Part shown: piece by piece, positions 16,310 through 41,595 of the stretch
Layout of the letters: each line of letters begins with the position of its first letter
Numbering within the stretch: the first letter of the stretch is position 1
DNA from: Guptibacillus hwajinpoensis
GTDB taxonomy: Bacteria; Bacillota; Bacilli; Bacillales; Guptibacillaceae
NCBI RefSeq assembly: GCF_001039475.1
Contig: NZ_LELK01000001.1
Location: 1,213,735 to 1,277,734 of the forward strand
Direction of reading: 5' to 3'
DNA: 64,000 nucleotides
Position numbers and translations under genes: made by a program
Notes under the pieces: model-generated
Databases searched by the model: none
Seen by the model: only the letters and a program-made list of their open reading frames with translations
Told to the model about the DNA's origin: nothing

Positions 16310-17491
16310 TTAGTGCTTTTTCTTATACTTAAGGTCATCAAAATTAATACAGTCATCAATTTCAAGTTCGCCATCTTCAACTTCAACCATACCAGAATTA
16401 TAAACTGTTTCTCCCCTATGGTTTAGTAAGTGGACTTCGAACCATTGGTTCTCCTCTTCAACGACAGCTGCAAGTTTAAAGTCACGATGTTTTCCGTGAC
16501 TTGTAACACCAGTACCTTCAATAATGAACTTCAGACCGTCTCCACATTCTTTACACTGCAATGTGTTTTGATCGAAACCTGTTGCTTTATATGTGAAGTT
16601 TCTTTTCCCGTCGCTAGAGTCTGTATCGTAGTAGTTAAATTTCATTCTGCTATCTGCCATGCTGCAATCGGAGCAAATATCAGCATAAAGAGTTATTTTA
16701 CCTGCATCTTCTTCAGAGTCACATTCTCCACTAGCCTCTCCAGAAAGCGTGCAATCACAACTAGGACGCGGGAAGATATCTGGACACTGTTCAGGGAATT
16801 CAACCGGCGGACATTCATGGTAATCGTCATCATCAAAATCCAAATCATTGTTACGAGGTGAGCAGAATTTAGCCATAACTTCGAGCTTTACTTCTGCCTC
16901 TACTTGGATATCAACGCAGAAAATAACTTCTAGTTTAAATGATGTTGGTGAAGGACAATTTAATAATACAGTGCCTGACGGGATGCGGCAAATGATTTTT
17001 GTGATTCTACAATATAAGTCTGTTCCGTTCGGGAAACAAAGAACAAACGATTCGAGTACTGAGGTATTACAATTTACCTCCGTGACAATCTCACCATTTC
17101 GATCGACTACCATAACCTGCATATCTGCTGTAAAGAGAAGATCCACTAATTGTGCATCAGCAAAGCCTCCTCCTCCAGGTAAGGCAACACTCACATCTCT
17201 TTTCTCCCCGATTTGTTCACATAGAAATCCTTCTCCTTCTTCCTCACTCCCAGAGAGTGGGAACAGAGGCGGAGTCTCAGGGGCATTACATACGATACGT
17301 AATGGACGGCGTGATGGATCTCCCATCGCTTTTTCAATACAAGCAATCTGCTCATCAGTAAATTCAATTTCTTTTTTAACTGATAGCTGATCGGTCACCC
17401 AGTCGTATACTTTTTGAACGCGAATGCACTCATCCTGCAAGCTGTTAGTAGCAGTAGGAACTGTGCGTTTTTTATGTGGCTTGTGACCCAT
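16310..17491 (-). CDS. Cys-rich acidic probable spore surface protein
   Basis: A 393-residue protein without signal peptide, rich in Cys, Asp and Glu. The N-terminus is basic (MGHKPHKKR). The middle has beta-strand pairs such as LEVIFCVDIQVEAEVKLEVM; the second half contains dense Cys patches (PSCDCTLSGEASGECD, CSDCS, LQCKECGDG) and an acidic stretch (DLDFDDDDYHECPPVEFPEQ). Cys-rich, self-assembling proteins of this kind are typical of the coat or exosporium of Bacillus spores. I do not recognise a named family. A near-match sigma-K -10 (CATACTATG, with AC 16 bases upstream) precedes it. It is followed by its own terminator. Confidence 0.65.
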   Translation of the reverse strand: MGHKPHKKRTVPTATNSLQDECIRVQKVYDWVTDQLSVKKEIEFTDEQIACIEKAMGDPSRRPLRIVCNAPETPPLFPLSGSEEEGEGFLCEQIGEKRDVSVALPGGGGFADAQLVDLLFTADMQVMVVDRNGEIVTEVNCNTSVLESFVLCFPNGTDLYCRITKIICRIPSGTVLLNCPSPTSFKLEVIFCVDIQVEAEVKLEVMAKFCSPRNNDLDFDDDDYHECPPVEFPEQCPDIFPRPSCDCTLSGEASGECDSEEDAGKITLYADICSDCSMADSRMKFNYYDTDSSDGKRNFTYKATGFDQNTLQCKECGDGLKFIIEGTGVTSHGKHRDFKLAAVVEEENQWFEVHLLNHRGETVYNSGMVEVEDGELEIDDCINFDDLKYKKKH

Positions 17492-18940: not shown

Positions 18941-19663
18941 TTAACGCTTATACCTCTTTGCTTCTTTTACAATTAATTCCTTCATAGCCTTTCTGTGCTT
19001 CTTTTTCACAAGCTGAATTTCTTTTTTTATCGCTACTGCGTTTTTTTTCGTGCCCATATTTTGATGAACACGATACCTTACAATCGGGCTTGCAAGGTAC
19101 TTGAAGTAATGCTTTTGTAGTACTCGAAGCCATAAATCATAATCCTGTGTGAATTGGAGCGATTCGTCAAATAATCCTACTTCGTTAAAAACGGCCATTT
19201 TCAACATGACTGTACAGCCATTTATAGGGCACCCATTTTTCAATTTCCTATAAAATAATAGGCGATCAGGATACTCCATACCGATTGGACCACTCACCGG
19301 AACACTCTTTTCATTAATAAGGATATATGAGGCATAACTTGCAGAAAGGCAATGAGTTTTCATAAAGTTGATTTGCTTCTCAATTTTGTCTGGTTCATAT
19401 ATATCATCTGAACTGAGCCAGCTAAAATAATCTCCTGTAGCTACCTTTATTCCTGAATTTAATGCACTTGCTGTTCCACCGTTTTCTTTTGTAATGTATG
19501 TGATCTGTTGCAAAAAAGGTAGCACTTTTTCCTGATGAATGGTAGAACCATCATTTACTACGATAACCTCAACATTTTTGTATGTTTGATTAAGTGCACT
19601 TCTAATCGATTGATCGATATACGCACAATTGTAAAACGGGATAATGATGGAGACTTTATCCAC
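18941..19663 (-). CDS. Family 2 glycosyltransferase
   Basis: A 240-residue GT2 (GT-A fold) enzyme that would move a sugar from a nucleotide donor to a growing glycan at the inner membrane face. The N-terminal nucleotide-binding part has VSIIIPFYNCAYIDQSI and VIVVNDGS; ENGGTASALNSGI and SWLSSDDIYEPDKIE give the metal-binding region, and FTQDYDLWLRVLQKH is the acceptor-side ED/QDYDLW motif. It is a paralog of the GT2 at 22970-23704. GTG start at 19663, six bases after GGGGGGAG. A perfect sigma-K -10 (CATAAGTTA) lies 32 bases upstream, so late mother-cell expression and a spore-surface glycan role are inferred. Confidence 0.87.
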   Translation of the reverse strand: MDKVSIIIPFYNCAYIDQSIRSALNQTYKNVEVIVVNDGSTIHQEKVLPFLQQITYITKENGGTASALNSGIKVATGDYFSWLSSDDIYEPDKIEKQINFMKTHCLSASYASYILINEKSVPVSGPIGMEYPDRLLFYRKLKNGCPINGCTVMLKMAVFNEVGLFDESLQFTQDYDLWLRVLQKHYFKYLASPIVRYRVHQNMGTKKNAVAIKKEIQLVKKKHRKAMKELIVKEAKRYKR

Positions 19664-19703: not shown

Positions 19704-19822
19704 CATCCAAAGTGAATAATGCATGAGACAATTTGATATATTCCTTAGTTGATATCATCCAAACCAAATACATAATAGAAACATATCTTGGAAGTAGAAA
19801 GTAACAAAGAAAGGATGATAAT

Positions 19823-20578
19823 ATGACTTCTTCCGACTTGATCAAGCCCTTTTTTGTTAATTCAATTGCAAAAAGCGGAACACACCTTCTTCGCCCATTA
19901 CTAGAAGGCGTTCCTAACTTAAAACATGACGCGTTTATTTATCCCGGTCATCTTCATCAGCTGGATGAGCACAGAAAGATCCTTTCCAAATTAAAACCAA
20001 ATCATTTCGCAAATGGTCATCTTTTTCACTCACAAGAGTACGTTCAGATGATAAAACAATTACATCTTAAACAACTTTTTTTATATAGAGATCCACGGGA
20101 TATTGTTGTTTCATATGCTTACTTTTTCATGAGATTTCCTGATCACCCCTATCGCCGTTTCTTTACTGAGAATAATATGTCTGTTAAAGAAAGATGCTCC
20201 TATTTTATTAATGGAAACCTAACCGGAGGGCTAGTAAGACCAAACATTAACAATTGGTATCGAAAGTTTCTTGGCTGGAAAAACGAAGATGGCGTTCTTC
20301 CTATTTCTTATGAATCGCTCGTTCATTCGGATTTCTCTCAAAAAGAACAATTAGCCAGGATCCTTCATTACCTAAATGTTGACAAACAATCACTTGAGAT
20401 TGACAAAGTAATCGAACAAATGCAGCGTAATGCGGATCCCTCTAAGTCTCTGACATATAGAAAAGGGACCTCAGGTGACTGGCAAAAGGAGTTCGATGCG
20501 GATTTGAAGAGTGATTTTAAAACAGTTGCAGGAGACTTGTTAATCGAATTAGGCTATGAAAAAGATAAGAATTGGTAA
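19823..20578 (+). CDS. Sulfotransferase-domain protein (paralog 1)
   Basis: A 251-residue sulfotransferase. The PAPS-binding motifs are present: the 5'-phosphosulfate loop in NSIAKSGTHLLRPLLEG (residues about 12-28) and the 3'-phosphate motif LYRDPRDIVVSYAYFF near residue 88-103; YRKGTSGDWQKEF near the C-terminus is the usual late motif. Such enzymes transfer sulfate from PAPS to a hydroxyl or amine of a sugar or small molecule. The gene is surrounded by glycosyltransferases, so a glycan acceptor is likely. It is a clear paralog of 23874-24653; both begin MTSSDL and end YEK..NW. A good ribosome site (AAAGGATGATAAT) precedes the ATG. Confidence 0.87.
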   Translation: MTSSDLIKPFFVNSIAKSGTHLLRPLLEGVPNLKHDAFIYPGHLHQLDEHRKILSKLKPNHFANGHLFHSQEYVQMIKQLHLKQLFLYRDPRDIVVSYAYFFMRFPDHPYRRFFTENNMSVKERCSYFINGNLTGGLVRPNINNWYRKFLGWKNEDGVLPISYESLVHSDFSQKEQLARILHYLNVDKQSLEIDKVIEQMQRNADPSKSLTYRKGTSGDWQKEFDADLKSDFKTVAGDLLIELGYEKDKNW

Positions 20579-20583
20579 TCGTA

Positions 20584-20617
20584 AAGAAGGCCTGATCTAG
20601 GCAGATCAGGCCTTCTT
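20584..20617. terminator. Bidirectional terminator between sulfotransferase and GT4
   Basis: A 15-bp stem (AAGAAGGCCTGATCT/AGATCAGGCCTTCTT) with a 4-base loop, between two convergent genes. Confidence 0.85.
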
Positions 20618-20642
20618 ATTTGTCATTGGTAGTATAGTAGAT

Positions 20643-21677
20643 CTACTTTCCCTTTGCCATATAAAATTTAAGCGCTTCTTCAAATAGCTGGACACTTCTC
20701 CCCCAGGTCCATTTTTCAGCTTCCTTCTGGCCCTCTTGTGCCAAAACACTTCTTAGCTTTGGTTGTTCAACAAGCGTTGTAACATCCTTGAGGAGTTTAT
20801 TCTCATAGCGGTACGATAAAAGACAATTTTGACCTGGTTTGCAATAATCCATATTTCCACCAGAATAAACGGTAGCAAGGGCAGCACCGCATTTCATTGC
20901 TTCAAGTCCAGGAAGTGAAGCCGTATCATACGTGGATGAACTAACGAATATATCTGCATTATTTAAATGCTGGACAAGCTGTACATCGTTGCTTGGGGTA
21001 ATTGAATTAAAAAGGGGATTTGAATGTATTTTCCGAAGTTTTGGAGATGACCTTAATTCACTCGGTGGGGTAATTAAATTGACTGTCACCTTTGGGTATT
21101 TCTGTTTGACCATAGTCAGCACATCAATTAAATATTCTTGTTCACGATGCCACGAATATCCGCCTTCAGGAATACGTAACATACTAGTCACCTGAAGCCC
21201 TACCGTTGACTTACTGTTGAAATTCCTGAAAACATCACTCACACCTACAGGCACGATCTTCCCTTCAATTCCATGGTTCAAGTTAATAAGCTGTTGCTGC
21301 CAGTTTGAAAGTACAATAAGGTTTTTACTACTATGATAGCTTCTAAAAGATGCCTCATGATCGGATAAAAAAACAGGCTCATAACATAAGCTAATACGAA
21401 CGTGAACGCCTTTCCCGCTATTCGCAGCTTGTTCACAAACATCCGTTAACGTGTAGAAATTCGACACGATAATATCGCCAGTTGGTATATCACTTGACGT
21501 TATCGTTGAGCCTTTGGTCCTGATTACTTTAACATTAACCGGATATTCCACAACACCCTGAGGAGGCATGATAAAGCACACTTCATGCCCTTTAGCAGCT
21601 AATCCATTGGCTAATTCCGAGAGCATCCGTTGAGCCCCTCCTTTACAGAGAGTAATGGCTACAAACATAATTTTCAT
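20643..21677 (-). CDS. Family 4 glycosyltransferase
   Basis: A 344-residue GT-B fold glycosyltransferase. The N-terminal domain opens MKIMFVAITLCKGGAQRMLS, with the glycine-rich acceptor loop; the C-terminal domain has SSSTYDTASLPGLEAMKCGA, the donor-site region of GT4 enzymes, and ends in helices typical of the family. It probably adds a sugar in synthesis of the spore-surface glycan coded around it. The start is set at the ATG at 21677, nine bases after AAGGA; an ATG two codons earlier is possible. It is the last gene of a unit with the two GT2 genes at 21.7-23.7 kb. Confidence 0.85.
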   Translation of the reverse strand: MKIMFVAITLCKGGAQRMLSELANGLAAKGHEVCFIMPPQGVVEYPVNVKVIRTKGSTITSSDIPTGDIIVSNFYTLTDVCEQAANSGKGVHVRISLCYEPVFLSDHEASFRSYHSSKNLIVLSNWQQQLINLNHGIEGKIVPVGVSDVFRNFNSKSTVGLQVTSMLRIPEGGYSWHREQEYLIDVLTMVKQKYPKVTVNLITPPSELRSSPKLRKIHSNPLFNSITPSNDVQLVQHLNNADIFVSSSTYDTASLPGLEAMKCGAALATVYSGGNMDYCKPGQNCLLSYRYENKLLKDVTTLVEQPKLRSVLAQEGQKEAEKWTWGRSVQLFEEALKFYMAKGK

Positions 21678-21713
21678 CACCATTAGTCCTTCCTATCTTG
21701 GTTTTTTCCTAAC

Positions 21714-22928
21714 TTACAATTTCTCTAACCGTTCATAGCACTTTAGAAATAAGTGATATCTTCCTATTTCTTTTAATTGTTTCTTTTCTTCTGATAGGGT
21801 GATTTCTTCTGTAGCTTGAAGCGATTTAGATCTTAGGTTGGTAATAGGCAACTGCTTACTTACCAATCTGCCGATTTCTCTCAGCATAAAGTGAAAATTC
21901 TTTTTTAGTAATGGAAATTTAATTGGATAGTCATGACACAGCTTATTATAAAGAATTAGAATTTGATTGATTTCATGTAAATTAAAAGGGACAGGGAGGA
22001 ACGTTAGGCTGATTACCATTTGATCAACCGCATTATATGTTTCTTGAAAGCGGTAGTAATTTAATTTCGATTCATCTTTAATTCCCTTGAACACAGGATG
22101 TTCTTGATGATAACTAACTAGTTTACGATCTGTCGTGAAAATCGCACCATTCTTATAGAGTCTATATCCCATCTCCAGGTCATCCCAACCATATCCCGGG
22201 TATTCTGTAAATAATCCTACTTCTTCTATGGCTTGCTTTTGAACTGATACATGCCCTGTACCGAATAGCTGCCATGGTATTTGATAATTTAAGAGTTTGT
22301 ATCCATAATTTTTGATGATGATCCTTTTATAAAATTCTTCGTAATCCGTAGGTACAGCAAGGCTTTTATAACTTTGATTAAGAATTTGCAATTTGTTTAT
22401 TAAAGGAATATAAGCTCTTTTATTAAGAAACTCATTATACTTTGCTCTTAATGCTGGCTGGTTTGTTAGAAGTGTTCTAAATTGATCTAACTGTGCGTTC
22501 GAGAAGCCTGGGATTAAAGCCGAATAAAGCTTCTTTATAAATAAAACCCCAGTTACGACTGAGTTCTTTTGCGTTTTATGATAGTGAGAATGAATGGAGA
22601 GAAAATCAGGTTGTACGAGGATTTCTGCATCCAAAAAAATGAGAATCGTTCCAGACGATGCTTTAATCCCAATGTTTCTCGCCGCAGGACGACCTATGTT
22701 CTTTCCGTTATTAATATATTTAAAATTAAATGGAAAATGATAGTCTTTTAATATCTGACTCGTTTGATCCGTCGATCCGTCATCGACCATTATTACTTCG
22801 ACTTTCGAGAGATCAAATTGCTGATTTTCAAGTGAAAAAAGAGTTAACAAATTCTGTGGGTACTTATTATAAGTTGGAATGATTACGCTAATATCAACAG
22901 AATTATTATCATTTTTGATCGTATCCAT
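21714..22928 (-). CDS. Family 2 glycosyltransferase with long C-terminal region
   Basis: A 404-residue protein. Residues 1-250 are a GT2 domain: VDISVIIPTYNKYPQNLLTL, VIMVDDGSTDQTSQIL, ARNIGIKASSGTILIFLDAE (metal-binding DxE in place of DxD) and FTEYPGYGWDDLEMGYRLYK, the galactosyltransferase-like WEDLEMGYR motif. The C-terminal 130 residues have no recognised domain. The WDDxEMGxR pattern resembles enzymes using UDP-Gal or UDP-GalNAc type donors, but the donor is not certain. The start is ATG at 22928; a TTG three codons upstream is too close to the GGGGG ribosome site. Middle gene of the GT2-GT2-GT4 unit. Confidence 0.85.
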   Translation of the reverse strand: MDTIKNDNNSVDISVIIPTYNKYPQNLLTLFSLENQQFDLSKVEVIMVDDGSTDQTSQILKDYHFPFNFKYINNGKNIGRPAARNIGIKASSGTILIFLDAEILVQPDFLSIHSHYHKTQKNSVVTGVLFIKKLYSALIPGFSNAQLDQFRTLLTNQPALRAKYNEFLNKRAYIPLINKLQILNQSYKSLAVPTDYEEFYKRIIIKNYGYKLLNYQIPWQLFGTGHVSVQKQAIEEVGLFTEYPGYGWDDLEMGYRLYKNGAIFTTDRKLVSYHQEHPVFKGIKDESKLNYYRFQETYNAVDQMVISLTFLPVPFNLHEINQILILYNKLCHDYPIKFPLLKKNFHFMLREIGRLVSKQLPITNLRSKSLQATEEITLSEEKKQLKEIGRYHLFLKCYERLEKL

Positions 22929-22969
22929 TAAACTCAATACCCCCTAATTTAACGACTAGATGTCTCTTT

Positions 22970-23704
22970 TTACTCATGATTATTCCCTTCTGAACGTTGA
23001 ATAAGGAGATCAAGTCCATCTTTATATCTTTTCTTTACTATTTCGATCTCCTTCATCTGTTCCTCGTGATGTAGTTGAGAGCCCATTTTTGTGTGTTTCC
23101 GATAGTATAAGAGCGTCTCCTTCAAACCTACAACCTTAGCCACGCTAGCTATCCTCAACCACATATCGTAATCCTGGGTATATTTTAACGCTGGATTAAA
23201 AGTACCAACTTTAGTAAACACTTCTTTCTTTACTAAAACGGTACTTCCATTTATAGGACAACTTTTCTGAAGATGCTTCAAAAAGGCGAGTTTATTATCG
23301 AGAATCACGCCGACATCGCTTCTGATGACTTCGCTTTTCTCATCAATTAAGCTGAAATTCGTATAAACCAGATCCGCATTTGTTCTCTTCATAAACTCAA
23401 CTTGCTTTTCCAATTTCTCAGGATGGAAAACATCGTCTGAACTTAACCAGGCGATGAGTTCACCTGTAGCTACAGGAAGCCCTCTATTTAATGCTGTTGC
23501 CGTTCCACCATTTCTTTTATAGATGTAATGAATGTCTTTCAAAAAAGGCGTTACTAACATTTGATTTGATGTAGAACCATCATCCACTACAATGATTTCA
23601 ACATTAGGATACGTTTGTTTGAGAACGCTACTAATTGCTTGATCAACGTACGAACAATTATAAAATGGAATGATCACACTTACTTTTGGCAATTCAGATT
23701 CCAA
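22970..23704 (-). CDS. Family 2 glycosyltransferase
   Basis: A 244-residue GT2 enzyme and close paralog of 18941-19663. Visible motifs are KVSVIIPFYNCSYVDQAI, IIVVDDGSTSNQM, RNGGTATALNRGLPVATGE, IAWLSSDDVFHPEKLEKQ and YTQDYDMWLRIASVAK. It likely transfers one sugar of the spore glycan. The start used here is a TTG at 23704 behind GAGGGTG, which gives a short N-terminus like that of the paralog; an upstream ATG at 23719 is possible but has no ribosome site. It is the first gene of the GT2-GT2-GT4 unit. A CATA-N4-TA sequence upstream (around 23732) resembles a sigma-K -10 with one extra base. Confidence 0.85.
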   Translation of the reverse strand: MESELPKVSVIIPFYNCSYVDQAISSVLKQTYPNVEIIVVDDGSTSNQMLVTPFLKDIHYIYKRNGGTATALNRGLPVATGELIAWLSSDDVFHPEKLEKQVEFMKRTNADLVYTNFSLIDEKSEVIRSDVGVILDNKLAFLKHLQKSCPINGSTVLVKKEVFTKVGTFNPALKYTQDYDMWLRIASVAKVVGLKETLLYYRKHTKMGSQLHHEEQMKEIEIVKKRYKDGLDLLIQRSEGNNHE

Positions 23705-23843
23705 TATCGACACCCTCATTTCACGGTTAACAATATGCTATTCGTTAACTATTCTGACGAATTATACCAACTTCTACTTAATTCATCATATGTATTAAAA
23801 TCAATCAAGCATAGATACCCCCCCATTAGATGAGACCTATACT

Positions 23844-23873
23844 AAAAAGCGGCATATATCCCCATGCCGCTTT
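23844..23873 (-). terminator. Terminator after the minus-strand sulfotransferase
   Basis: Stem AAAGCGGCAT/ATGCCGCTTT with an 8-base loop and a T-run on the minus strand, directly after the stop. It separates this gene from the GT2-GT2-GT4 unit. Confidence 0.82.
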
Positions 23874-24653
23874 CTACCAATTTAAATTCTTTTCATATTG
23901 AAGCGATACGAGTAATTCGCCTCCATGTTTCTTGAATAATTGTTTAAGTTCTTCGTTAAACTCCTGATTCCAACCACCAATCTTTCCTTTACGATAGGTT
24001 GGTGATGTTTGGGGATTGATGTTCTCTATCATTTTTCTAACCATTACTGGCCTTGTAAATGGCACCTCTTCCTCTCCCCATAGAAACTTAACTAGGCGAT
24101 GAAGTAGTTGTAATCTTTCCTTTTCAGAAGAGACTAGTTCCTCGAACCTAATTGTAAAAACGTCTGATTGCTCCGTCCACTTTGAAAAACTTGTGTACCA
24201 ATCATTAACATTAGGCTGATATGGTTTACTAGGTGTAATCGGTTGCCCACCTTCTATTAGAAATTTCATTCGATCATGATGTGTAAAGCCTTCCTGTTGG
24301 AACGTTTCATATAGTGGATGAATCTTCAACGTTGGAATAAAATACGCGTAAGAGACGATAACATCTCTCGGATCTCTCATCACAAATACCTGCTTCATAT
24401 TTAGCTTTTTAAAAAAAGCATCCCATGTTTGTGAATAAAAAAGATGGCCATTTACAAATTCATTATCGCTTAGAGCTTCAACTCTATCCAACTGAAGCTT
24501 ACCTTGGTATTCATAATGTCCAAACATCCCTTTATCCGGGTGATGCTGCATTCCTGGAATGCCCTGTAATATTTGCTTTACTAAATGAGTCCCGCTTTTC
24601 GGTATTGAATTTAAGACAAATGGTGGAAGGGAACGTAGATCGGAAGAAGTCAT
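23874..24653 (-). CDS. Sulfotransferase-domain protein (paralog 2)
   Basis: A 259-residue sulfotransferase. The PAPS loop is NSIPKSGTHLVKQILQG and the 3'-phosphate motif is FVMRDPRDVIVSYAYF; the late motif is YRKGKIGGWNQEF. It shares MTSSDL at the start and YEKNLNW at the end with the gene at 19823-20578, so the pair comes from a duplication followed by divergence and inversion. The acceptor is probably a sugar of the polysaccharide made by the surrounding genes, but this is inferred. A perfect sigma-K -10 (CATAGAATA) lies 43 bases upstream, and a terminator follows, so it may be its own late mother-cell transcript. Confidence 0.87.
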   Translation of the reverse strand: MTSSDLRSLPPFVLNSIPKSGTHLVKQILQGIPGMQHHPDKGMFGHYEYQGKLQLDRVEALSDNEFVNGHLFYSQTWDAFFKKLNMKQVFVMRDPRDVIVSYAYFIPTLKIHPLYETFQQEGFTHHDRMKFLIEGGQPITPSKPYQPNVNDWYTSFSKWTEQSDVFTIRFEELVSSEKERLQLLHRLVKFLWGEEEVPFTRPVMVRKMIENINPQTSPTYRKGKIGGWNQEFNEELKQLFKKHGGELLVSLQYEKNLNW

Positions 24654-24695: not shown

Positions 24696-24704
24696 TATTC
24701 TATG
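24696..24704 (-). promoter_or_regulatory. Candidate sigma-K -10 element
   Basis: Minus strand CATAGAATA, a full match to CATANNNTA, 43 bases before the sulfotransferase start. Confidence 0.45.
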
Positions 24705-24747
24705 TATTTCAATCGTTAAATGATTGGACAACGATCCCATTTTTTGA

Positions 24748-24802: not shown

Positions 24803-25705
24803 TCAGTCATTTTTCCTTGATTGCCTATAATACTGTAAAATATCGACTAAGGAAGAGCGGAATGATTTCACAGGCTTCCACCCTAATTCATATATGTTTT
24901 CATTATTAACGCTAGGTAGTTCCTCTGAAGAATTTGACCTTAATTCTTCTATTAGAATTGGTAGCTCTGTTAACCGTTGATAATGATCGACTACTTCTCC
25001 AAGAGATCTCATTTGTCCAGATCCAATTTCATACAACTTTCCTTTCTTTCCATGCTGAAAAATCAAATCATACGCCCTTACCACGTCTCTTACATCAAGA
25101 AAATCGCGTTTTGCCGATAAATCGTTAATGTGAAGAGAAGGAGTTCCCTTCACCTGTTCTTGACTAGCGATTTCCTCTGCAATAAGAGAACAAATGCCTT
25201 TTGAAGGTCCAGGACCAATCAAATTAGTCGGTTTTGTCATTACAATATCCATATCAAAAAGATGCTCCCAATGTTCTGCTAATTGAACTTGCATCGTTTT
25301 GCTAACACTATAGGGGTGTAGGGGTTTGTCACCCTGATTATATTGGAGAGCAGACCCTACAATAATGATTCTAGATTGATTGTTTAGTCTTCTAACTGTT
25401 TCTAATAGGTAAAGGGTTGAGAGGACATTTCCTTCAATTGATGCAAGAGGAGAGTCCCAGGAATTGTGAACTGAATTAACACCCGCTAGGTGAAGAATAT
25501 AATCAGGTTTTATATTATGGATTATAGACTCTACAGCTTCTCTTTTCGTTAAGTCACAAGCGATGACCTTGACGCCCTGGATGCCGACACCCTTATTCCG
25601 GACAACTGCTGTAACTTCCCACCCTAACTTCTGAAAATGCTGACAAGCACATCTACCAGTGAAACCACTACCTCCAGTTATTAAAAGAGAGGCTGATTGC
25701 CTCAT
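24803..25705 (-). CDS. NAD-dependent sugar epimerase/dehydratase (extended SDR)
   Basis: A 300-residue extended SDR acting on a nucleotide sugar. The NAD(P) loop is TGGSGFTGRCACQHF near the N-terminus, the active-site pair is YSVSKTMQ, and KRDFLDVRDVVRAYDLIFQ is the substrate-domain signature of the GDP-6-deoxymannose reductase and epimerase group. The exact sugar is unknown. The start overlaps the stop of the upstream reductase by four bases (ATGA), showing tight coupling in the wecB-dehydratase-reductase operon. A possible longer N-terminus (MDGCS) is rejected because of the ATGA overlap. Confidence 0.85.
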   Translation of the reverse strand: MRQSASLLITGGSGFTGRCACQHFQKLGWEVTAVVRNKGVGIQGVKVIACDLTKREAVESIIHNIKPDYILHLAGVNSVHNSWDSPLASIEGNVLSTLYLLETVRRLNNQSRIIIVGSALQYNQGDKPLHPYSVSKTMQVQLAEHWEHLFDMDIVMTKPTNLIGPGPSKGICSLIAEEIASQEQVKGTPSLHINDLSAKRDFLDVRDVVRAYDLIFQHGKKGKLYEIGSGQMRSLGEVVDHYQRLTELPILIEELRSNSSEELPSVNNENIYELGWKPVKSFRSSLVDILQYYRQSRKND

Positions 25706-26529
25706 GGAACATCCATCCATTCCTTTAACTCTAGTAACATCTCTTTATATGAGGGAACCGCATAGCGATAATCAGTTCTCGTATTTCTAATTGTCCGATC
25801 TAAAACAATTTCCTCATCGGGATGAATACTAACATCCTCTTTCTTAAATACATCTTGCATCATTCTTAATAAATCATATTTGGAGATTTTCTCTTCACCG
25901 CCAAGATGATACAACCCAGATACATTGTTCTGTAATAGGGTTTCAATAGCTTTTGCGAGTTCAAGCGTAGTGACTCCGTTCCACATCATATTTTTATAAC
26001 CTTTAATCGCACCGGATTGGTTCATGAACCATAACAACAATCCAATTCCATTTTTCTTAAGCTCAGGACCAATAATCGATGTCCTGATTGTAAGATGGTG
26101 ATGGCTTATCACTTCTCCTAGGGCTTTCGTTTTTGCATAGACCGACGTACCATCCTTATAGTCATTCTCGGTGTAATCGCCCTTTTCACCTGAAAACACA
26201 CAGTCTGTACTAATGTGAACGAGTTTACCTCCATAGCTCTCAACTAATGGTGTGAGTTGATGCGGCAAAAGACTATTCACATGAAATGCAGCTGTTTTAT
26301 TATTGTTTGCATTGTCATTCAAAAGGCCAATAGCATTTACCACAACGTCTGGTTTAATCTTCTCGATTACTTCCTCTAATGAACTTTGCATGAGTACATT
26401 TAGATAGATGCCGCGTTTTTCCTTCTGATCACGTGTTGTGTAATAAACATCCCACTCAGGTTTCTGATCAAAATACTTTACGATCATGTGTCCTGCCATT
26501 CCATTTCCGCCGAGAACAAGCAGCTTCAT
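25702..26529 (-). CDS. RmlD/FnlB-like nucleotide-sugar reductase
   Basis: A 275-residue SDR reductase of the RmlD type. It opens MKLLVLGGNGMAGHMIVKYF; HISTDCVFSGEKGDYTENDY is the RmlD-family signature, and YAKTKALGE holds the catalytic Tyr and Lys. It lacks the C-terminal cupin found in CapF, so it matches the shorter FnlB-like reductases that act on UDP-2-acetamido-2,6-dideoxy-hexos-4-ulose. Together with the dehydratase and 2-epimerase upstream it suggests a UDP-L-FucNAc route (CapE/F/G or FnlA/B/C like). It shares one base with the upstream stop (TAATG). The pathway is inferred from the trio. Confidence 0.82.
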   Translation of the reverse strand: MKLLVLGGNGMAGHMIVKYFDQKPEWDVYYTTRDQKEKRGIYLNVLMQSSLEEVIEKIKPDVVVNAIGLLNDNANNNKTAAFHVNSLLPHQLTPLVESYGGKLVHISTDCVFSGEKGDYTENDYKDGTSVYAKTKALGEVISHHHLTIRTSIIGPELKKNGIGLLLWFMNQSGAIKGYKNMMWNGVTTLELAKAIETLLQNNVSGLYHLGGEEKISKYDLLRMMQDVFKKEDVSIHPDEEIVLDRTIRNTRTDYRYAVPSYKEMLLELKEWMDVP

Positions 26530-27515
26530 TAGATAAACCCACCTTTATGAAGCAGCTTCTTCAATTCTTCACGTGACATTAAATTTTCACTAGAAATATA
26601 GTTTTCTAATTCAACTGGTTTGAACTTTGAATAATAATCTTGCAGACCATCCACAGTAATCGAAGGTAGTATCACAAAATATTCTCGGTCATAATACACC
26701 GTACTCTGGCTTTCATATTCAGAAAAAAGGAGTTCATGTAGTTTCTCACCTGGACGAATTCCTAGCACTTCCATATCAACATTTTCTTTACCAGACGCTT
26801 CAATTAATACTGCTGCAAGGTCAACGATTTTACAGGTAGGCATTTTCATTACAAATATCTCTCCACCCCTGCTTTCATATGTCGCCTTAAATAAAAGTTT
26901 AATTGCCTCTTCAATCGTTAAGAAAAAGCGCGTCATCCTCATATCTGTAATACCAACTCTGCCTCTTTCTTCGATCTGATCTTTAAAGACGTGAATCACA
27001 CTACCATTCGTCCCTAATACATTTCCGCCCCGCACGCATACAAATTTCGTTTCGGATTTCAAAACATTCGCATGCGTAATGAGCCTTTCTCCCATTGCCT
27101 TTGTAAATCCATAAAAGTTCGATGGGTTTGCTGCTTTATCGGTAGAGATGTAGACGACTTTTTCAACTTTATTCATTATGGAAGCATCAATAACGTTTTG
27201 CGTTCCGATTACATTCGTTTTCATTGCTTCTAATGGTTGATCTTCACACACCGGAACATGCTTTAATGCAGCAAGATGGAAAACATAATCAACATCTTTC
27301 GTTGCTTCAATTAACCCTTCTTTTTCCTTAATGTCACCGATGATGAATTTCAAATTCTTTTTTTGATGAAATGCTCTCTTCATAGCTACCTGACTTGATT
27401 CATTTCTCGAAAACACTCTTATCTCTTCAGGGTTCTTTTCAAGAAGCTGTTTGACAAGTTCATAGCCCCATGAACCTGTACCTCCTGTAACCAATATGGT
27501 TTTATTATGGAACAA
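26529..27515 (-). CDS. CapE/FnlA-like UDP-GlcNAc 4,6-dehydratase
   Basis: A 328-residue extended SDR of the polysaccharide-biosynthesis (CapD/CapE/FnlA) group. The cofactor loop is ILVTGGTGSWGYELVKQL; the active site is in ISTDKAANPSNFYGFTKAMG with Tyr and Lys; GITDMRMTRFFLTIEEAI and GIRPGEKLHELLFSE are group hallmarks. It removes water from UDP-GlcNAc at C4/C6, in some members with C5 inversion. It is a soluble type, without the membrane helices of the long CapD/PglF forms. The start is TTG at 27515 with AGGAGG eight bases upstream; this ribosome site lies inside the last codons of the 2-epimerase gene. Confidence 0.87.
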   Translation of the reverse strand: MFHNKTILVTGGTGSWGYELVKQLLEKNPEEIRVFSRNESSQVAMKRAFHQKKNLKFIIGDIKEKEGLIEATKDVDYVFHLAALKHVPVCEDQPLEAMKTNVIGTQNVIDASIMNKVEKVVYISTDKAANPSNFYGFTKAMGERLITHANVLKSETKFVCVRGGNVLGTNGSVIHVFKDQIEERGRVGITDMRMTRFFLTIEEAIKLLFKATYESRGGEIFVMKMPTCKIVDLAAVLIEASGKENVDMEVLGIRPGEKLHELLFSEYESQSTVYYDREYFVILPSITVDGLQDYYSKFKPVELENYISSENLMSREELKKLLHKGGFI

Positions 27516-28596
27516 TAGTTAACCCTCCTAATATAAATTTCACAACTTTATCTGATACATCCTCATCGGTATAGCCTTCTGGAAAGCGCCAATCTGTGGA
27601 TTGCTTGATCATGACATTAACGGATCGAACGATATTAGTAGCATTCAGACCAGATACGATATTGCTCCCACATGCGATGGTTTCAGGTCTTTCAGTGGTT
27701 TTGCGTATCGTTACGGTTGGTACTCTGAACAAACAGCATTCTTCCTGGACAGTACCACTATCTGTTATGACACAAGCCGCGTTTTGTTCAAGATGAACAA
27801 AATCAAAAAAGCCAAACGGTTCATGGAACTCTACTAGTGGTTCCATATGAAGTGTGCGATCTATTAGCCTTGAGCTTGTTCTTGGGTGAATGCTGCAAAT
27901 GATTCTCTTTGCATGCGTTTTAGCTAATAAATTTAGCCCTTTTAGAATCTCAGATAGATGGTTTGAATTATCGACATTCTCAGCTCTATGAGCCGTTACC
28001 AAGAAGTAATCTTGCTTCGATAAGTTGAGTTTAGTTAAGATCGTCCTTTCAGAAATCTTCTGTTGATAATGATGAAGTACTTCATAAATTGGATTTCCTG
28101 AAACATAGACTCGATTTGTTGCTACTCCTTCTCTTAAGAGGTTCTCCTTACTCTGTGGTGTATATGGAAGATTGAACGTTGAAATGGCGTCGATCACTCT
28201 CCTGTTTTTCTCTTCCGGGACTGTCCAGTCATAGCATCGATTCCCTGCCTCCATGTGAACGACTGGAATACCCATTCGCTCAGCTAGAATGGCGCTTAGG
28301 GCGCTGTTCGTATCACCAAGCACAAGCACTTTATCGGGTTTTTCTTTAAGAAAGATCTGCTCTAACTCTGAATACATCGTAGCTAGTTGTTCACCGAGCG
28401 TTTGCTTCTTCTTATGAAGCATATAATCTGGTGTACGAATTCCAAGCTCTTCGAAGAAAACATCGCTAAGCGTGTTCGTGAAATTTTGACCGGTATGAAT
28501 AAGAATATGACGATCCGCAAGGTGATCGAGCTTCTTGATAATTAAACTTAAACGGATGATTTCCGGTCTTGTTCCAAGTACTGTTACGATTTTCAT
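27505..28596 (-). CDS. Non-hydrolysing UDP-GlcNAc 2-epimerase family enzyme (WecB/FnlC-like)
   Basis: A 363-residue GT-B-like epimerase. Visible family blocks are VLGTRPEIIRLSLIIKKL at the start, VLVLGDTNSALSAILAERMG, HMEAGNRCYDWTVPEEKNRR, LVTAHRAENVDNSNHL and the UDP-binding VITDSGTVQEECCLF. It interconverts UDP-GlcNAc-type sugars at C2; with the 4,6-dehydratase and reductase that follow it fits the FnlC/CapG step of UDP-L-FucNAc synthesis. It is the first gene of the operon. Start ATG has AAAGGGGAGG upstream. A perfect sigma-K -10 lies 36 bases before it. Its 3' end overlaps the next gene by 11 bases. Confidence 0.87.
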   Translation of the reverse strand: MKIVTVLGTRPEIIRLSLIIKKLDHLADRHILIHTGQNFTNTLSDVFFEELGIRTPDYMLHKKKQTLGEQLATMYSELEQIFLKEKPDKVLVLGDTNSALSAILAERMGIPVVHMEAGNRCYDWTVPEEKNRRVIDAISTFNLPYTPQSKENLLREGVATNRVYVSGNPIYEVLHHYQQKISERTILTKLNLSKQDYFLVTAHRAENVDNSNHLSEILKGLNLLAKTHAKRIICSIHPRTSSRLIDRTLHMEPLVEFHEPFGFFDFVHLEQNAACVITDSGTVQEECCLFRVPTVTIRKTTERPETIACGSNIVSGLNATNIVRSVNVMIKQSTDWRFPEGYTDEDVSDKVVKFILGGLTIVP

Positions 28597-28858: not shown

Positions 28859-29011
28859 TGGCTCTTTTAGTAGACATTGTTGCTATAGCAGGTTAATTTC
28901 CGCTCCTACCCGCTTTCCGCGGGACGGGCAGTGAGCATCCTTCCGCTCCAATTAGCGAAGTGTAGTTTTTTATAAAATTATTTCAAAATCAATGAAAAGG
29001 GCAAAGGGCCT
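28859..29011. repeat. Repeat element D (153 bp, core partly deleted) with 6-bp target duplication
   Basis: It starts TGGCTCTTTTAGTAGACATT and ends GGGCCT. The direct repeat ACTTCT flanks it exactly (28853-28858 and 29012-29017). The core has the same GAGC-to-GAGC deletion as element C. Its right end overlaps the stop codon of the CgeB-like gene: the T comes from the target duplication and the AG from the element. Confidence 0.9.
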
Positions 29012-29942
29012 ACTTCTTTCCCTTTTTAACATGATCCTTAATATGTTGGATTAGTTCTTTTGTTCTTGTCACTGTAGAGTGTTTGCTGTGCACCATTTCA
29101 TATCCTTTTCTAGCGATGGAAACTCTCGTCTTTTCATCGTGTAAGTATTCGTTTGCTTTTGCGATAAAATTTGATTCATCGATTGCCACGAAGGTTTCTC
29201 CGTCAATAAATCCGAGGTCAGTTAGTTCGTTTGATGCTGGAGCAAGGAGTAATGTGTTGCAGGCTAACGTTTCAAAGTACTTTAACAAAGGAAAGTGATG
29301 AATGGAATCACAAGTAAGACACATTTTTGCTCGGTTCAGTTCTTTCGCATACCTTTCACCAACAAGCTCATTGTGACTCACGTTTCGGTATCCTGGATGA
29401 GTATGATACGTAAATCCTTTCATCCCTTTCATCTGACGTAATATCTCAGTTCGTAATGGATAAAGATCAGGAATGATTTTCCCCGTCATTAACCAATTTA
29501 TGTTTCTCGAACTACGATAATCTTTAAATACGTCTGTCTGAACATGATGAGGAAACCAGACCATTCGATCAGTGAATTCTGGATACCACTTGAGAAAAGC
29601 ATCCCGATAATGCGTAAAAATAAGAGAGACATTCCCCTTTTCGATCATTCGCTTTCTGCTTGATTTCTTATAATGCAGATCATGCATCATCACACCGATT
29701 GGAATGTTGGTTGTATCGAGCCCTCTTATAAAGGGACAGTAAGTAGGATGATAATCATTTAATAGGATGAAGTCTGGCTGAGTTGGTAGGTTTGTAAGAA
29801 TGTGCTGAATGTTACTATGCTCACGCCAGACGAATAGATTTGTATGTTTACGAAGCTCTAATTCTAGATTGTGACTGCTTTTTTCTAGAAAATTGCTTAA
29901 ATTCTTGGTTATGAATAAAAGTGTAAGCTTATTTTCCTTCAC
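29010..29942 (-). CDS. CgeB-like glycosyltransferase (spore maturation)
   Basis: A 310-residue GT-B-type protein resembling spore maturation protein CgeB. Visible are IGVMMHDLHYKKSSRKR, LIFTHYRDAFLKWYPEFTDR, FPHHVQTDVFKDYRSSRNIN, LMTGKIIPDLYPLRTEIL and a donor-side LKYFETLACNTLLLAPASNE. In B. subtilis cgeB helps build the outermost spore surface under sigma-K and GerE. The start is taken at GTG 29942, nine bases after GAGGAC; the frame is open further upstream but runs through a hairpin terminator at 29975-30006. It forms a unit with the 74-residue gene upstream. Its stop codon TAG is completed by repeat element D. Confidence 0.75.
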   Translation of the reverse strand: MKENKLTLLFITKNLSNFLEKSSHNLELELRKHTNLFVWREHSNIQHILTNLPTQPDFILLNDYHPTYCPFIRGLDTTNIPIGVMMHDLHYKKSSRKRMIEKGNVSLIFTHYRDAFLKWYPEFTDRMVWFPHHVQTDVFKDYRSSRNINWLMTGKIIPDLYPLRTEILRQMKGMKGFTYHTHPGYRNVSHNELVGERYAKELNRAKMCLTCDSIHHFPLLKYFETLACNTLLLAPASNELTDLGFIDGETFVAIDESNFIAKANEYLHDEKTRVSIARKGYEMVHSKHSTVTRTKELIQHIKDHVKKGKK

Positions 29943-29974
29943 ATTATCCACGTCCTCAAAAAAGAGTTTACGAT

Positions 29975-30006
29975 AAAAAATTGAAGGTTCCACCAAGGGA
30001 ACCCTC
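29975..30006 (-). terminator. Intra-operon terminator or attenuator before the CgeB-like gene
   Basis: On the minus strand a 9-bp stem (GAGGGTTCC/GGAACCTTC, one G-T pair) is followed by AATTTTTTA. It lies just past the stop of the 74-residue gene and 33 bases before the chosen start of the CgeB-like gene, so it would lower, not abolish, read-through. Confidence 0.7.
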
Positions 30007-30017
30007 TATACTAAATT

Positions 30018-30242
30018 TTAGTATTCAATTGCATTAATTTTACTTATTGGTACCATACAAGTTAGATTTCCAGCGGAGCTTCCCACTTGATTAAATACAA
30101 CAAAATCTGCTCCGACTTGTCCTACTGTTACACCTATTAGATCAGGTTCTCCTTCTCCATTTTGTGTGTTTAGGATATAAACCGAAGAAAGAACGGTTTT
30201 AGAGTGCATCATACCTACTAATGCAGCACGCATTTTAAGCAT
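30018..30242 (-). CDS. Small putative spore-surface protein (CgeA position)
   Basis: A 74-residue protein starting MLKMRAALVGMMHSKTVLSS. The second half has the pattern LIGVTVGQVGADFVVFNQVG then CMVPISKINAIEY, that is, a G-x-V...G-x-D-x-V...V/I-P-I-x-x-I repeat-strand pattern resembling small Bacillus proteins with DUF2642-like domains; this is a weak recognition. It is directly upstream of the CgeB-like gene, the place cgeA has in B. subtilis, but the sequence is not clearly CgeA. The ribosome site AAAGGAG precedes the ATG. A near-match sigma-K promoter (AC, 17 bases, CATACTATT) lies upstream. Confidence 0.6.
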   Translation of the reverse strand: MLKMRAALVGMMHSKTVLSSVYILNTQNGEGEPDLIGVTVGQVGADFVVFNQVGSSAGNLTCMVPISKINAIEY

Positions 30243-30292: not shown

Positions 30293-30301
30293 AATAGTAT
30301 G
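30293..30301 (-). promoter_or_regulatory. Near-match sigma-K -10 element
   Basis: Minus strand CATACTATT (one mismatch), with AC 17 bases upstream, 51 bases before the 74-residue gene. Confidence 0.35.
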
Positions 30302-30506
30302 TAGTTGCATATCCACTGGTTTGGACAATTACCATAATTTGAATTTTTTATATAAAAATAGTCTTTTATAACACATTTGGGTTAATTAACCATTTTAGGA
30401 AAGATGGTGTAATGACTCATACACCTTACACCAATTTACAATACATTATAGTAAACCTGAAAAAAATGATCAGGTGGACTTTATGTAGAAGGAGGAAATA
30501 GAAATT

Positions 30507-30900: not shown

Positions 30901-31704
30901 TTACCTTTCTTTCAACAACCCACACAAGCGTAAATACTCTTCTTCCTTTCCTACATCAAACCTAGCAGCGGAACTCTCTACTGCAAAATAGTTTTCTTCA
31001 GACAGCAATGCTTTAATAGCATCAGTTAGCTGAAGTTCTCCTCCTGAACCAGGTGTAAGTTGGTTTAATGCTTCATAGATCTTACTTGTAAAAACGTATC
31101 GACCGGTGACAGCAAGCTTTGAAGGTGGAGATGATGTTGGCTTTTCGACAATATTTTTTATTTCATACAACCCTTTCGACCGTAACTGTGCATCAATGAC
31201 TCCATAATCTTTCAATAGCTTTGACTCTACTTCTTTGACAGCTAGTACATTCGTTTTATGACTGTTATAAACATCGATTAATTCCTGCAGTGCCGGTTTT
31301 TGATGAGGAATGAACAGATCATCAGGTAGCATGACTGCAAATGGTTCCTTTCCTGTGAAAGGCTTAGCAAGTGAGATGGCGTCTCCAAGTCCTTTCGCAT
31401 GTGACTGACGAACATACTGGATATGCACATTAGGAAGCTTTGTTTTCTCAAGCAAATGCGTTTTGTTTGCGCGCTCCAAAAACGCCTCTAATTCAAGGGA
31501 ATGATCGAAATAATCCATTATTAAGTTTTTTGTTCTTGAGATGATAATGAGAATCTCCTCGATCCCAGATTCGACTGCTTCTTCTACTACATAATGGATA
31601 GCTGGACGACCTCCGATTGGAAACATTTCTTTAGGAATTACTTTTGTAATAGGTAAGCTCCGCGTTCCATAACCAGCTGCTGGAATTACTGCTTTTTTGA
31701 TCAT
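30901..31704 (-). CDS. ytdA: YtdA-like UTP-glucose-1-phosphate uridylyltransferase
   Basis: A 267-residue GalU/GtaB-type nucleotidyltransferase that makes UDP-glucose from UTP and glucose-1-phosphate. The signature AAGYGTRSLPITKVIPKEMF is at the N-terminus; FAVMLPDDLFIP holds the metal-binding Asp, and NIVEKPTSSPPSKLAVTGRY is the typical middle block. Several GtaB paralogs exist in Bacillus; the divergent neighbours ytcA, ytcB and ytcC point to YtdA, the sporulation paralog. Its UDP-glucose would feed the Ugd enzyme next door. It ends close to the CotY/Z-like gene, facing it. Confidence 0.85.
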   Translation of the reverse strand: MIKKAVIPAAGYGTRSLPITKVIPKEMFPIGGRPAIHYVVEEAVESGIEEILIIISRTKNLIMDYFDHSLELEAFLERANKTHLLEKTKLPNVHIQYVRQSHAKGLGDAISLAKPFTGKEPFAVMLPDDLFIPHQKPALQELIDVYNSHKTNVLAVKEVESKLLKDYGVIDAQLRSKGLYEIKNIVEKPTSSPPSKLAVTGRYVFTSKIYEALNQLTPGSGGELQLTDAIKALLSEENYFAVESSAARFDVGKEEEYLRLCGLLKER

Positions 31705-31921
31705 AAGTCCGCTCCTTCCAATTGGCTATTTCAATAACGTATTCACTTCGGAAAACCTCAGAAAGTTGTCTAATGAAAAACAGGCATAATCATTGGCCTT
31801 ATTATGGTATCAATGCCTATTTATCGCCCTCTTATGGCTTTTCACTACACCAACCACTCTACGCCTAATACGATATAGAGATATTGTTAACGGAGCGTCT
31901 GCAATTGGAGGGAAGACTGGA

Positions 31922-33202
31922 ATGGATATATGTATAGTTGGAGCAGGTTATGTAGGACTTACAACCGCAGCGTTGCTTGCAGAACTTGGTCACAGCATTC
32001 ACTGTATTGATAAGGATATTTCAAAAATCAAACTGTTAAATGAGGGAAAGTCTCCGATTCATGAACCTGGATTAGAAGAGTTGTTAAGGAAGAATCAACA
32101 GAATGGAAAATTAATCTTCTCTGATGATCGTGAAGCGTGTTTTCTAAACGCACCTATTCTTTTAATTGCAGTTGGTACGCCTTCGAAACCAAATGGTGAT
32201 ACGAAGCTTACGGCATTAAAAAGTGTGTTTGAGCAGATTTCAAGAAATATCAGTTCTCATAAACTGATCATCATCAAAAGCACTGTGCCCCCAAGCACAA
32301 ATGAATGGCTTCATCAGTACTTGATCAAATCAGGTGTTGATGCAACCTTATTTGACATTGTTTCAAATCCTGAATTTCTAAGAGAAGGATCAGCCGTTTA
32401 TGACTCCTTTCATCCAGATAAAATTGTCATCGGTTCAAGTTCACCTTCTGCAATCGAAACCGTCAAAAAGATATACGAGAAACTAAATGCCCCTTATATC
32501 GAAACCAGCTTAACGGGTGCAGAACTGATGAAATATGCGTCAAATGCATTCCTTGCTACAAAAATCTCATTTATTAATGAGTTTTCACGAATTTGCGATC
32601 AATATGGTGTGGATGTCAATGAAATATCAACTTCGATTGGGATGGATCCGCGCATAGGACCTCACTTCTTGCAATCTGGCCTCGGCTACGGTGGCTCTTG
32701 TTTTCCAAAGGATCTAGATGCACTCGGCTATGCTGCCAGAAAAAGACGAATTAAGACAGATATATTACGTGCTGTCAAAAAAGTAAATGAAGATCAGGTA
32801 GATTATTATATTAATAAACTTGATAAAGAAATACATGGATTAAAAGGAAAGCAGATTACCGTATGGGGACTCACGTTTAAACCTAATACGGATGATACTC
32901 GAGAATCACAGTCAGTCAAACTCTGTGAGAAGCTACTTAAAAGGGGCTGTAGTGTGGTTACGTATGATCCAAAAGTTCAAACAATTCGTATTCCGATCGA
33001 TTTTGCCCCAGATATGTACCAGGCGGCCAAATATTCGCATGCTTTAATCGTAGCAACGGACTGGCAACAATTTAAATCACCAGATTGGTTAAAAGTTAAA
33101 AGAGCAATGATAGGAAACACAATACTTGATGGCCGTAATTGTTTAGATCGCAATGAGGTTATTGCCGCTGGACTGAACTATGTTGGAGTTGGTCGACCAT
33201 GA
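31922..33202 (+). CDS. ytcA: YtcA-like UDP-glucose 6-dehydrogenase
   Basis: A 426-residue UDP-glucose dehydrogenase, oxidising UDP-glucose to UDP-glucuronate with two NAD+. The N-terminal Rossmann loop is ICIVGAGYVGLTTAALLAEL; the catalytic Cys lies in GLGYGGSCFPKDLDAL, and the C-terminal UDP-binding domain starts ITVWGLTFKPNTDDTRES. The start is the ATG at 31922, behind GGAGGG; a 43-codon upstream extension of the open frame (with a hydrophobic stretch) has no ribosome site and is not part of the family. It overlaps ytcB by four bases (ATGA). Confidence 0.9.
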   Translation: MDICIVGAGYVGLTTAALLAELGHSIHCIDKDISKIKLLNEGKSPIHEPGLEELLRKNQQNGKLIFSDDREACFLNAPILLIAVGTPSKPNGDTKLTALKSVFEQISRNISSHKLIIIKSTVPPSTNEWLHQYLIKSGVDATLFDIVSNPEFLREGSAVYDSFHPDKIVIGSSSPSAIETVKKIYEKLNAPYIETSLTGAELMKYASNAFLATKISFINEFSRICDQYGVDVNEISTSIGMDPRIGPHFLQSGLGYGGSCFPKDLDALGYAARKRRIKTDILRAVKKVNEDQVDYYINKLDKEIHGLKGKQITVWGLTFKPNTDDTRESQSVKLCEKLLKRGCSVVTYDPKVQTIRIPIDFAPDMYQAAKYSHALIVATDWQQFKSPDWLKVKRAMIGNTILDGRNCLDRNEVIAAGLNYVGVGRP

Positions 33203-39070: not shown

Positions 39071-40284
<1,214 letters not shown>

Positions 40285-40285
<1 letters not shown>

Positions 40286-41247: not shown

Positions 41248-41280
41248 ATCCATGCTCCTCCTCGAATTTATTATTAGTTA

Positions 41281-41297
41281 TTAGCACCACGTACTAA
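41281..41297. promoter_or_regulatory. FapR-like operator of fabI
   Basis: TTAGCACCACGTACTAA, a 17-bp imperfect palindrome close to the FapR consensus TTAGTACCTGNTACTAA. It abuts a -10 like TGTTATAAT on the minus strand (TATAAT at 41302-41297), where bound FapR would block transcription unless malonyl-CoA releases it. Confidence 0.7.
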
Positions 41298-41331
41298 TTA
41301 TAACATGCTTTAGGATATGTATGTGAATTCT

Positions 41332-41484
41332 TTATCCCTTGCTCGTCTGAATATTACGTTTCTCATACGCGCAGGATGGACATTCAAATATCACATTTTG
41401 ATTCGACTGAGCTGTAATCGTCTCTTCCATGTTACATTCCTTATGACATTTAGGACAAATAACGATTGGCGATTCGTTAATCAA
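41332..41484 (-). CDS. Small zinc-ribbon protein
   Basis: A 50-residue protein with two Cys pairs, VICPKCHKEC near the start and FECPSCAYEK near the end, spaced as in a zinc ribbon. The start is TTG at 41484 with AGAGGAAGTG upstream; there is no ATG in front. I know no named family. Such proteins often bind nucleic acid or serve as small subunits. It lies between the Kef-type antiporter terminator and fabI, read in the same direction, upstream of the antiporter terminator by about 70 bases. Confidence 0.6.
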   Translation of the reverse strand: MINESPIVICPKCHKECNMEETITAQSNQNVIFECPSCAYEKRNIQTSKG

Positions 41485-41557
41485 CGCTACACTTCCTCTC
41501 ATCTCTTATGATATGAAGTATCACCTTCCTGTCTTTCATTATTCATATCCTACATAA

Positions 41558-41593
41558 CAAAAGACCTCCCTTATCTCTGTAAGGGAGGTCTTT
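41558..41593 (-). terminator. Terminator of mgtE-yjbQ
   Basis: A 14-bp stem (AAAGACCTCCCTTA/TAAGGGAGGTCTTT) with a 6-base loop, just past the antiporter stop; T-rich on both strands. Confidence 0.88.
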
Positions 41594-41595
41594 CC

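Follow-up and report, generated by a model that had tools for sequence, protein, structure and literature searches.

Why would a spore-forming bacterium keep two sulfotransferase genes among its sugar genes, and what do their products sulfate? The question is raised by a stretch of 64,000 nucleotides from Guptibacillus hwajinpoensis (NCBI RefSeq assembly GCF_001039475.1, contig NZ_LELK01000001.1, positions 1,213,735 to 1,277,734 of the forward strand), referred to here as the window, in which the sulfotransferases (STs) ST-A and ST-B lie in a cluster of glycan genes. The answer that we consider probable is that both enzymes sulfate sugars of a spore-surface (coat or crust) glycan made late in the mother cell. 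The two genes, in window positions, are:

19823-20578, + strand: ST-A, a sulfotransferase of the type that uses 3'-phosphoadenosine 5'-phosphosulfate (PAPS), 251 aa; PF00685 at 56.3 bits, 39% identity with ST-B, family motifs, PDB sequence match to the SULT 5x2b (E 5e-8)
23874-24653, - strand: ST-B, PAPS-type sulfotransferase, 259 aa; PF00685 at 59.5 bits, PDB sequence match to mouse SULT1E1 (1aqu, E 1e-7), AlphaFold2 model compared by Foldseek

Are they genuine sulfotransferases? By family, motifs and fold they are, the SULT fold being predicted from a model of ST-B. Both exceed the curated Pfam cut-off of PF00685 (22 bits), and they are the only copies that a profile search found in the 4.26 Mb genome. 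Aligned with each other they are identical in 102 of 264 columns (E = 7e-60). KSGTH, NGHL, RDPRD..VSYAYF and RKGxxGxW are present in both, which bears out the initial annotation in its claim that the PAPS-binding motifs (KSGTH and RDPRD..VSYAYF) are intact. In SULTs, KSGT forms the PAPS-binding loop, RDPRD..VS is the 3'-phosphate region and a His is catalytic. The alignments preserve the P-loop Lys, RKG, the RDPRD..VS region and the NGHL His, which stands opposite the THL His of SULTs, and in ST-B residues K19, H70, R93, S101, R221, K222 and G223 are invariant across 11 aligned proteins. The AlphaFold2 model built from these 11 proteins has a mean predicted local distance difference test score (pLDDT) of 85.4 and a predicted template modelling score (pTM) of 0.82. 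It matches SULT structures with adenosine 3',5'-bisphosphate (PAP); of the best 50 among 78 Foldseek matches at E <= 0.001, each is either of SULT type or a sulfotransferase called S4, E goes down to 7e-9 and most TM scores lie at 0.56-0.64, with SULT7A1 (5x2b, also the best solved relative of ST-A by sequence) in first place. No NCBIfam model matched ST-A or ST-B at E <= 0.001.

The two enzymes share PF00685, the KSGT P-loop, a THL-like His, RDPRD..VS, RKGxxGxW and the overall fold with cytosolic SULTs such as SULT1E1 and SULT7A1, but they are bacterial, about 16-20% identical to them in the Foldseek table, carry Asn for a Lys, and are linked to glycan genes. Animal Golgi carbohydrate sulfotransferases would be expected to share the reaction and the donor, whereas the STs here are short soluble bacterial proteins. 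Might one or both be inactive? Shortened or interrupted copies do occur among relatives (an open reading frame (ORF) of 180 aa at locus L037 of genome G008; two pieces at L040 of G005). ST-A and ST-B, however, are of full length and retain the PAPS and His motifs, which do not vary in the aligned family, and we find their inactivity very improbable.

What, then, do they act on? The company they keep is informative. Between ST-A on the + strand and ST-B on the - strand lie three GT (glycosyltransferase) genes, all on the - strand, so that the STs do flank glycosyltransferases in opposite orientation, as first described. The cluster and its flanks read:

16310-17491, - strand: spore-coat morphogen of the BMQ_0737 family; NF052457 at 137.9 bits (cut-off 71)
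18941-19663, - strand: GT2 glycosyltransferase, divergent from ST-A; PF00535, CATAAGTTA 40 nt before the start
20643-21683, - strand: GT4-type glycosyltransferase; PF00534
21714-22937, - strand: GT2 glycosyltransferase; PF00535
22970-23719, - strand: GT2 glycosyltransferase adjoining ST-B; PF00535
24803-25720, - strand: sugar-nucleotide reductase/epimerase of the short-chain dehydrogenase/reductase (SDR) type; PF01370, closest solved chain 2pk3, GDP-6-deoxy-D-lyxo-4-hexulose reductase
25702-26529, - strand: RmlD-like sugar-nucleotide reductase; PF04321
26529-27515, - strand: 4,6-dehydratase of UDP-N-acetylglucosamine (UDP-GlcNAc), PseB/FnlA/CapE type; PF02719, closest solved chains 6bwc, 2gn4, 4j2o, CapE
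27505-28596, - strand: UDP-GlcNAc 2-epimerase (WecB); TIGR00236 at 287.8 bits (cut-off 210)
29010-29996, - strand: glycosyltransferase (Glyco_trans_1_2), which we take to resemble CgeB; PF13524 at 64 bits
30018-30242, - strand: 74-aa ORF just upstream of that GT gene; no Pfam or NCBIfam match
30901-31704, - strand: UTP-glucose-1-phosphate uridylyltransferase type (YtdA-like); TIGR01099 at 305.1 bits, under the cut-off of 326.8
31793-35477, + strand: three genes for a UDP-sugar dehydrogenase, an epimerase and a GT4, presumably ytcA-ytcB-ytcC by their order; TIGR03026 above cut-off, PF01370, PF00534
36538-37644, - strand: CotS-family spore-coat protein; TIGR02906 at 285.1 bits (cut-off 172.7)
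39071-40285, + strand: spore-coat kinase CotI; NF053880 at 585.7 bits (cut-off 550)

Curated spore-coat families thus stand on both sides of the cluster, NF052457 on one and TIGR02906 with NF053880 on the other, all above cut-off; a GT4 gene sits between the CotS-family gene and cotI, and the BMQ_0737 family also exceeds its cut-off in L030, L082 and L083. Beyond 30.9 kb the gene order presumably mirrors the ytdA-ytcABC/cotS/cotI region of B. subtilis. Among the B. subtilis systems ytdA-ytcABC, sps, yfn, cge and cotS/cotI, it is ytc-, cotS- and cotI-like genes that flank the cluster here. B. subtilis itself, one of 14 control genomes, has no PF00685 match. Its ytdA-ytcABC and other such genes have roles in crust morphology and surface properties, and the available part of that account makes no mention of sulfate (PMC7439481).

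Is the link between STs and sugar genes peculiar to this genome? Within the genus and family, 12 of 15 genomes had an ST match, as did 22 of 299 in a sample of the order and 15 of 398 in a sample of the class (39 different genomes in total), and a scan of named genomes gave seven loci, distributed over Pseudalkalibacillus salsuginis, Bacillus sp. Marseille-Q3570 and three Alkalihalobacillus, of which A. algicola is currently named Guptibacillus algicola. The set for neighbourhood counts comprises 47 loci, the window and 46 other places with up to 20 kb read around each; L007 and L009, being the same places as L031 and L030, were not counted, and loci of sister species are not independent in these counts. 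A GT gene is present in 25 of the 47, two or more of the four sugar-nucleotide genes in 20 (L081 and L093 among them by weak SDR matches only), a PAPS-supply gene (Sat, CysC or an SLC13 permease) in 20, Sat or CysC in 18, and any of these kinds in 35. In L005, L006, L008 and L071 the ST-B ortholog has remained with the entire sugar cluster. The most direct sign of a family member acting on sugar comes from G193 and G391, in which GT2 and ST domains are joined in one protein (662 and 680 aa). At L092 and L094 (G494, G581) the sulfotransferase domain is the C-terminal part of 421-aa ORFs; the N-terminal part, scanned for L092, matched no Pfam family.

The locus also varies in the way that surface-sugar loci tend to. 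In G002 and G010 (L039, L041) the genes beyond the cluster (FabI, antiporter and MgtE, window 40471-46519) are 98% identical to those of the window, whereas the cluster itself holds four STs of 35-43% identity and GT and sugar genes of 48-87%. It changes far faster than its flank and is a serotype-like spore-sugar locus.

Where would the sulfate donor come from? In six members of the genus (L032-L037) sat, an SLC13 permease gene, cysC and an ST gene follow in a row, with Pfam names taken from L033 and the other five assigned by BLAST. A sat gene closes the glycan cluster of the ST-B orthologs in L005, L006, L008 and L071, and in L040 cysC, permease and sat are followed in one stretch by GTs, sugar genes and an ST. 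In genomes whose ST belongs to the PAPS operon, ytc-like genes (L117, G009) or the coat gene (L119, G003) adjoin the glycan cluster. The window's genome has the same sat-permease-cysC operon without the ST gene (L103, G000:C7:350000-366000); the next gene, of 238 aa, resembles by eye the gene after the ST in L033, and no sulfotransferase remnant was found in the operon (best tblastn E = 0.35). A second sat-cysC pair lies at L104. With two cysC genes in the genome, the estimated chance of meeting one in a random 20 kb stretch is about 1%.

If the product belongs to the spore, when are these genes switched on? The spore-formation gene spoIVA (PF09547) is present in 38 of the 39 ST genomes vs 268 of 398 genomes in the class sample, including all 15 ST genomes of that sample. 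In ortholog alignments TGTCCA stands about 20 nt ahead of CATANNNT, which defines the signature TGTCCA-N19-21-CATANNNT. The matching or near-matching sites in the window are:

24697-24730, - strand: candidate promoter of late-sporulation type for ST-B, whose start is 43 nt away; signature, with the same site before ST-B orthologs in L005, L006, L008 and L071
28638-28672, - strand: signature 41 nt upstream of wecB, which heads the sugar-nucleotide operon; -10 part kept in L030 and L031 (by eye)
30294-30327, - strand: signature match 51 nt before the start of the 74-aa ORF
19758-19789, + strand: candidate promoter of ST-A, imperfect (CCAAACC-N17-CATATCTTG); score 10/12, reached by 8% of shuffles

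Three copies of the signature in the window compare with 0.09 expected, and 12 in the 4.26 Mb genome with five for the reversed control. Two copies elsewhere in the genome (L109 and L110 on G000:C9, about 3 kb apart) precede a gerPA/gerPF-family ORF by 35 nt (PF10676, 30.4 bits, cut-off 27.3) and an 85-aa ORF by 51 nt, the latter with no family match; at L106 a copy lies 47 nt before a seemingly spurious frame, and the remaining genome copies are not at such positions. Orthologs of the GT2 gene at 18941-19663 in L030 and L031 carry the full signature. Across 950 kb of loci, chosen around STs and several of which helped to define the signature, 13 of 18 sites lie at most 120 nt before a gene start (seven ST genes, five glycan genes, one other), against none of three for the reversed control. 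A signature score of at least 10 is reached by 21 of 61 ST genes vs 28 of 667 others, and by 12 of 48 ST genes, some of the 12 being close kin, once the 13 defining STs are excluded; as the signature was derived from looking at alignments, these statistics are partly circular. The shorter box CATANNNT[AG], a candidate -10 of sigma-K type, occurs 30-56 nt before the start at six of 23 cluster genes (16310, 18941, ST-A, ST-B, wecB and cotI) vs one of 32 others (p = 0.017); elsewhere, in the loci of relatives, it precedes 15 of 58 STs vs 39 of 673 other genes. A scan for sigma-70 promoters at 18.4-31 kb gave no sign of them (36 sites vs 40.6 in shuffles). TGTCCAA, reversed, resembles the GerE box. 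Late mother-cell expression is likely for ST-B and the sugar operon, judged from these upstream sequences, and possible for ST-A. For exosporium genes of B. thuringiensis the mapped SigK promoters, as given in the available part of the source, read CAC-N16-CATATGTTA and resemble the signature (PMC4750369); another source, in what is available of it, places longer -35 and -10 blocks 14-16 nt apart (PMC517825). Control of exosporium genes in the B. cereus group is by SigK and GerE, whereas here it is read from sequence only; unlike the present cluster, that account, in its available part, makes no mention of a sulfotransferase.

How might such a pathway work? Promoters of the sigma-K type, probably with help from GerE, would switch the cluster on in the mother cell. 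WecB, the 4,6-dehydratase, the RmlD-like reductase and the SDR would make nucleotide sugars of 6-deoxy-N-acetylhexosamines, going by family names and known pathways, perhaps UDP-N-acetyl-L-rhamnosamine (UDP-L-RhaNAc) or UDP-N-acetyl-L-quinovosamine (UDP-L-QuiNAc). The GT2 and GT4 enzymes would then assemble the glycan in the mother-cell cytosol, and because it is built there no flippase or polymerase would be needed. PAPS would come from Sat and CysC, here probably from the sat-permease-cysC operon elsewhere in the genome, which in relatives ends in an ST gene. Each ST would use PAPS to sulfate a hydroxyl group on the glycan as it grows, with the NGHL His as the putative base by alignment to SULTs, and it is possible that two enzymes serve two positions or two sugars. 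Spores would probably gain a surface that is hydrophilic and carries negative charge. Timing, acceptor sugar, PAPS source and the role of each enzyme are all inferred in this scheme.

Several observations weigh against a sulfated spore glycan. One of the ST genomes, G262, gave no spoIVA match, and its ST is a distant one. In the 15 genomes of the genus and family, ST and 4,6-dehydratase cluster occur together in ten and are both missing from G004 and G014, but G006 and G008 have an ST and no match to the cluster's 4,6-dehydratase or GT4, and G007 has the cluster and no ST. PAPS genes lie outside the window. A search with a plain sigma-K pattern (AC, 14-17 nt, CATANNNTA, allowing one mismatch) upstream of 24 cluster genes at 15-41 kb was at chance, with four matches vs 3.2 in shuffles, and was set aside; what stood out was the longer signature, noticed later in the ortholog alignments. 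To this come the partly circular signature statistics, the weakness of the ST-A candidate promoter and the ST-B orthologs in L030 and L031, which have no signature site. In the catalytic Lys-x-His (KTH) of SULTs the His is aligned and invariant in the ST family, but the Lys preceding THL is replaced by Asn. The ST-B model finds its fold matches among small-molecule SULTs, the closest solved relatives also by sequence, and 12 of the 47 loci have no labelled GT, sugar or PAPS gene. Could the enzymes, then, sulfate some small molecule or a protein of the coat (for instance on tyrosine), in a locus that merely collects spore-surface genes? This would fit the solitary ST-A orthologs of L003, L004 and L072, which sit apart from GT genes and because of which ST-A may act on a separate acceptor; the ST-A ortholog of P. 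salsuginis, Q3570 and G176 is found by itself, away from the ST-B cluster. Against such a substrate stand the GT2-ST fusions, the GT genes in over half of the loci and the ST-B orthologs kept with the whole sugar cluster, and we regard it as unlikely.

The sugar genes would also be accounted for if growing cells made a sulfated exopolysaccharide or capsule and the adjacent spore genes were coincidental, since WecB, 4,6-dehydratase and GT2 families are frequent in capsule clusters, as is generally known and as NCBIfam names reflect. Profile scans of the cluster proteins, however, revealed no flippase, polymerase, chain-length or export protein; the coat genes on both sides, the promoter signature common to a gerPA-family gene and the near-universal spoIVA of ST genomes also speak for the spore, and a capsule seems distinctly unlikely. 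The sulfated spore glycan proposed in the initial annotation has gained from the flanking coat genes, the late-sporulation-type promoter signature, the linkage to PAPS and GT genes across Bacilli and the two GT-ST fusions; what did not survive is its detail of duplication.

How did the pair arise? That ST-A and ST-B are paralogs, at 39% identity, holds; that they stem from a recent local or tandem event does not. In the tree ST-A groups with five orthologs (100/100), and ST-B falls within a group of 12 rows (100/100) that includes five PAPS-operon STs. The first tree had 60 of 61 rows, with fragment L100 left out, and the second 47 of 61, with 14 fragments or long branches out. Forcing the 13 ST-A and ST-B orthologs together lowers the log-likelihood by 50.9 and is rejected by the approximately unbiased (AU) test (p = 8e-5), for a group that was taken from the duplication claim and tested after the first tree was known. 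On this tree they are old paralogs and not sisters, ST-B being closer to the PAPS-operon STs than to ST-A. With the exclusive group rejected, the split is therefore older than the present cluster, and ST genes, judging by the grouping and the AU result, apparently shuttle between glycan clusters and PAPS operons. The identical starts and ends had been offered as proof of duplication. Both are indeed shared, but neither carries a signal of ancestry: MTSSDL is peculiar to this genome, and because it is absent from the orthologs of either enzyme it is uninformative on an old duplication, while the C-terminal YE..W is conserved in 11 of 11 aligned family members.

What would it mean for spores? 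Spore surface charge and sugars govern sticking, clumping and encounters with phages and hosts. Searches of open-access papers, which leave absence unproven, returned no report of a sulfated spore glycan. If the reading is true, such a glycan with its own sulfate-activation genes would be a new spore-surface chemistry and would explain the doubled sat/cysC sets in some Bacilli, and short soluble glycan sulfotransferases with natural GT fusions would be usable for making sulfated sugars. We consider it as likely as not that, more broadly, sulfation is a widespread, overlooked spore-surface modification, carried by a movable module in which ST and GT come with a dedicated PAPS supply (sat, permease, cysC), switched on late in sporulation and varying between species in a serotype-like way. 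The 74-aa ORF at 30018-30242 is possibly a small spore-surface protein; the DNA upstream of the next gene looks alike, by eye, in L030 and L031.

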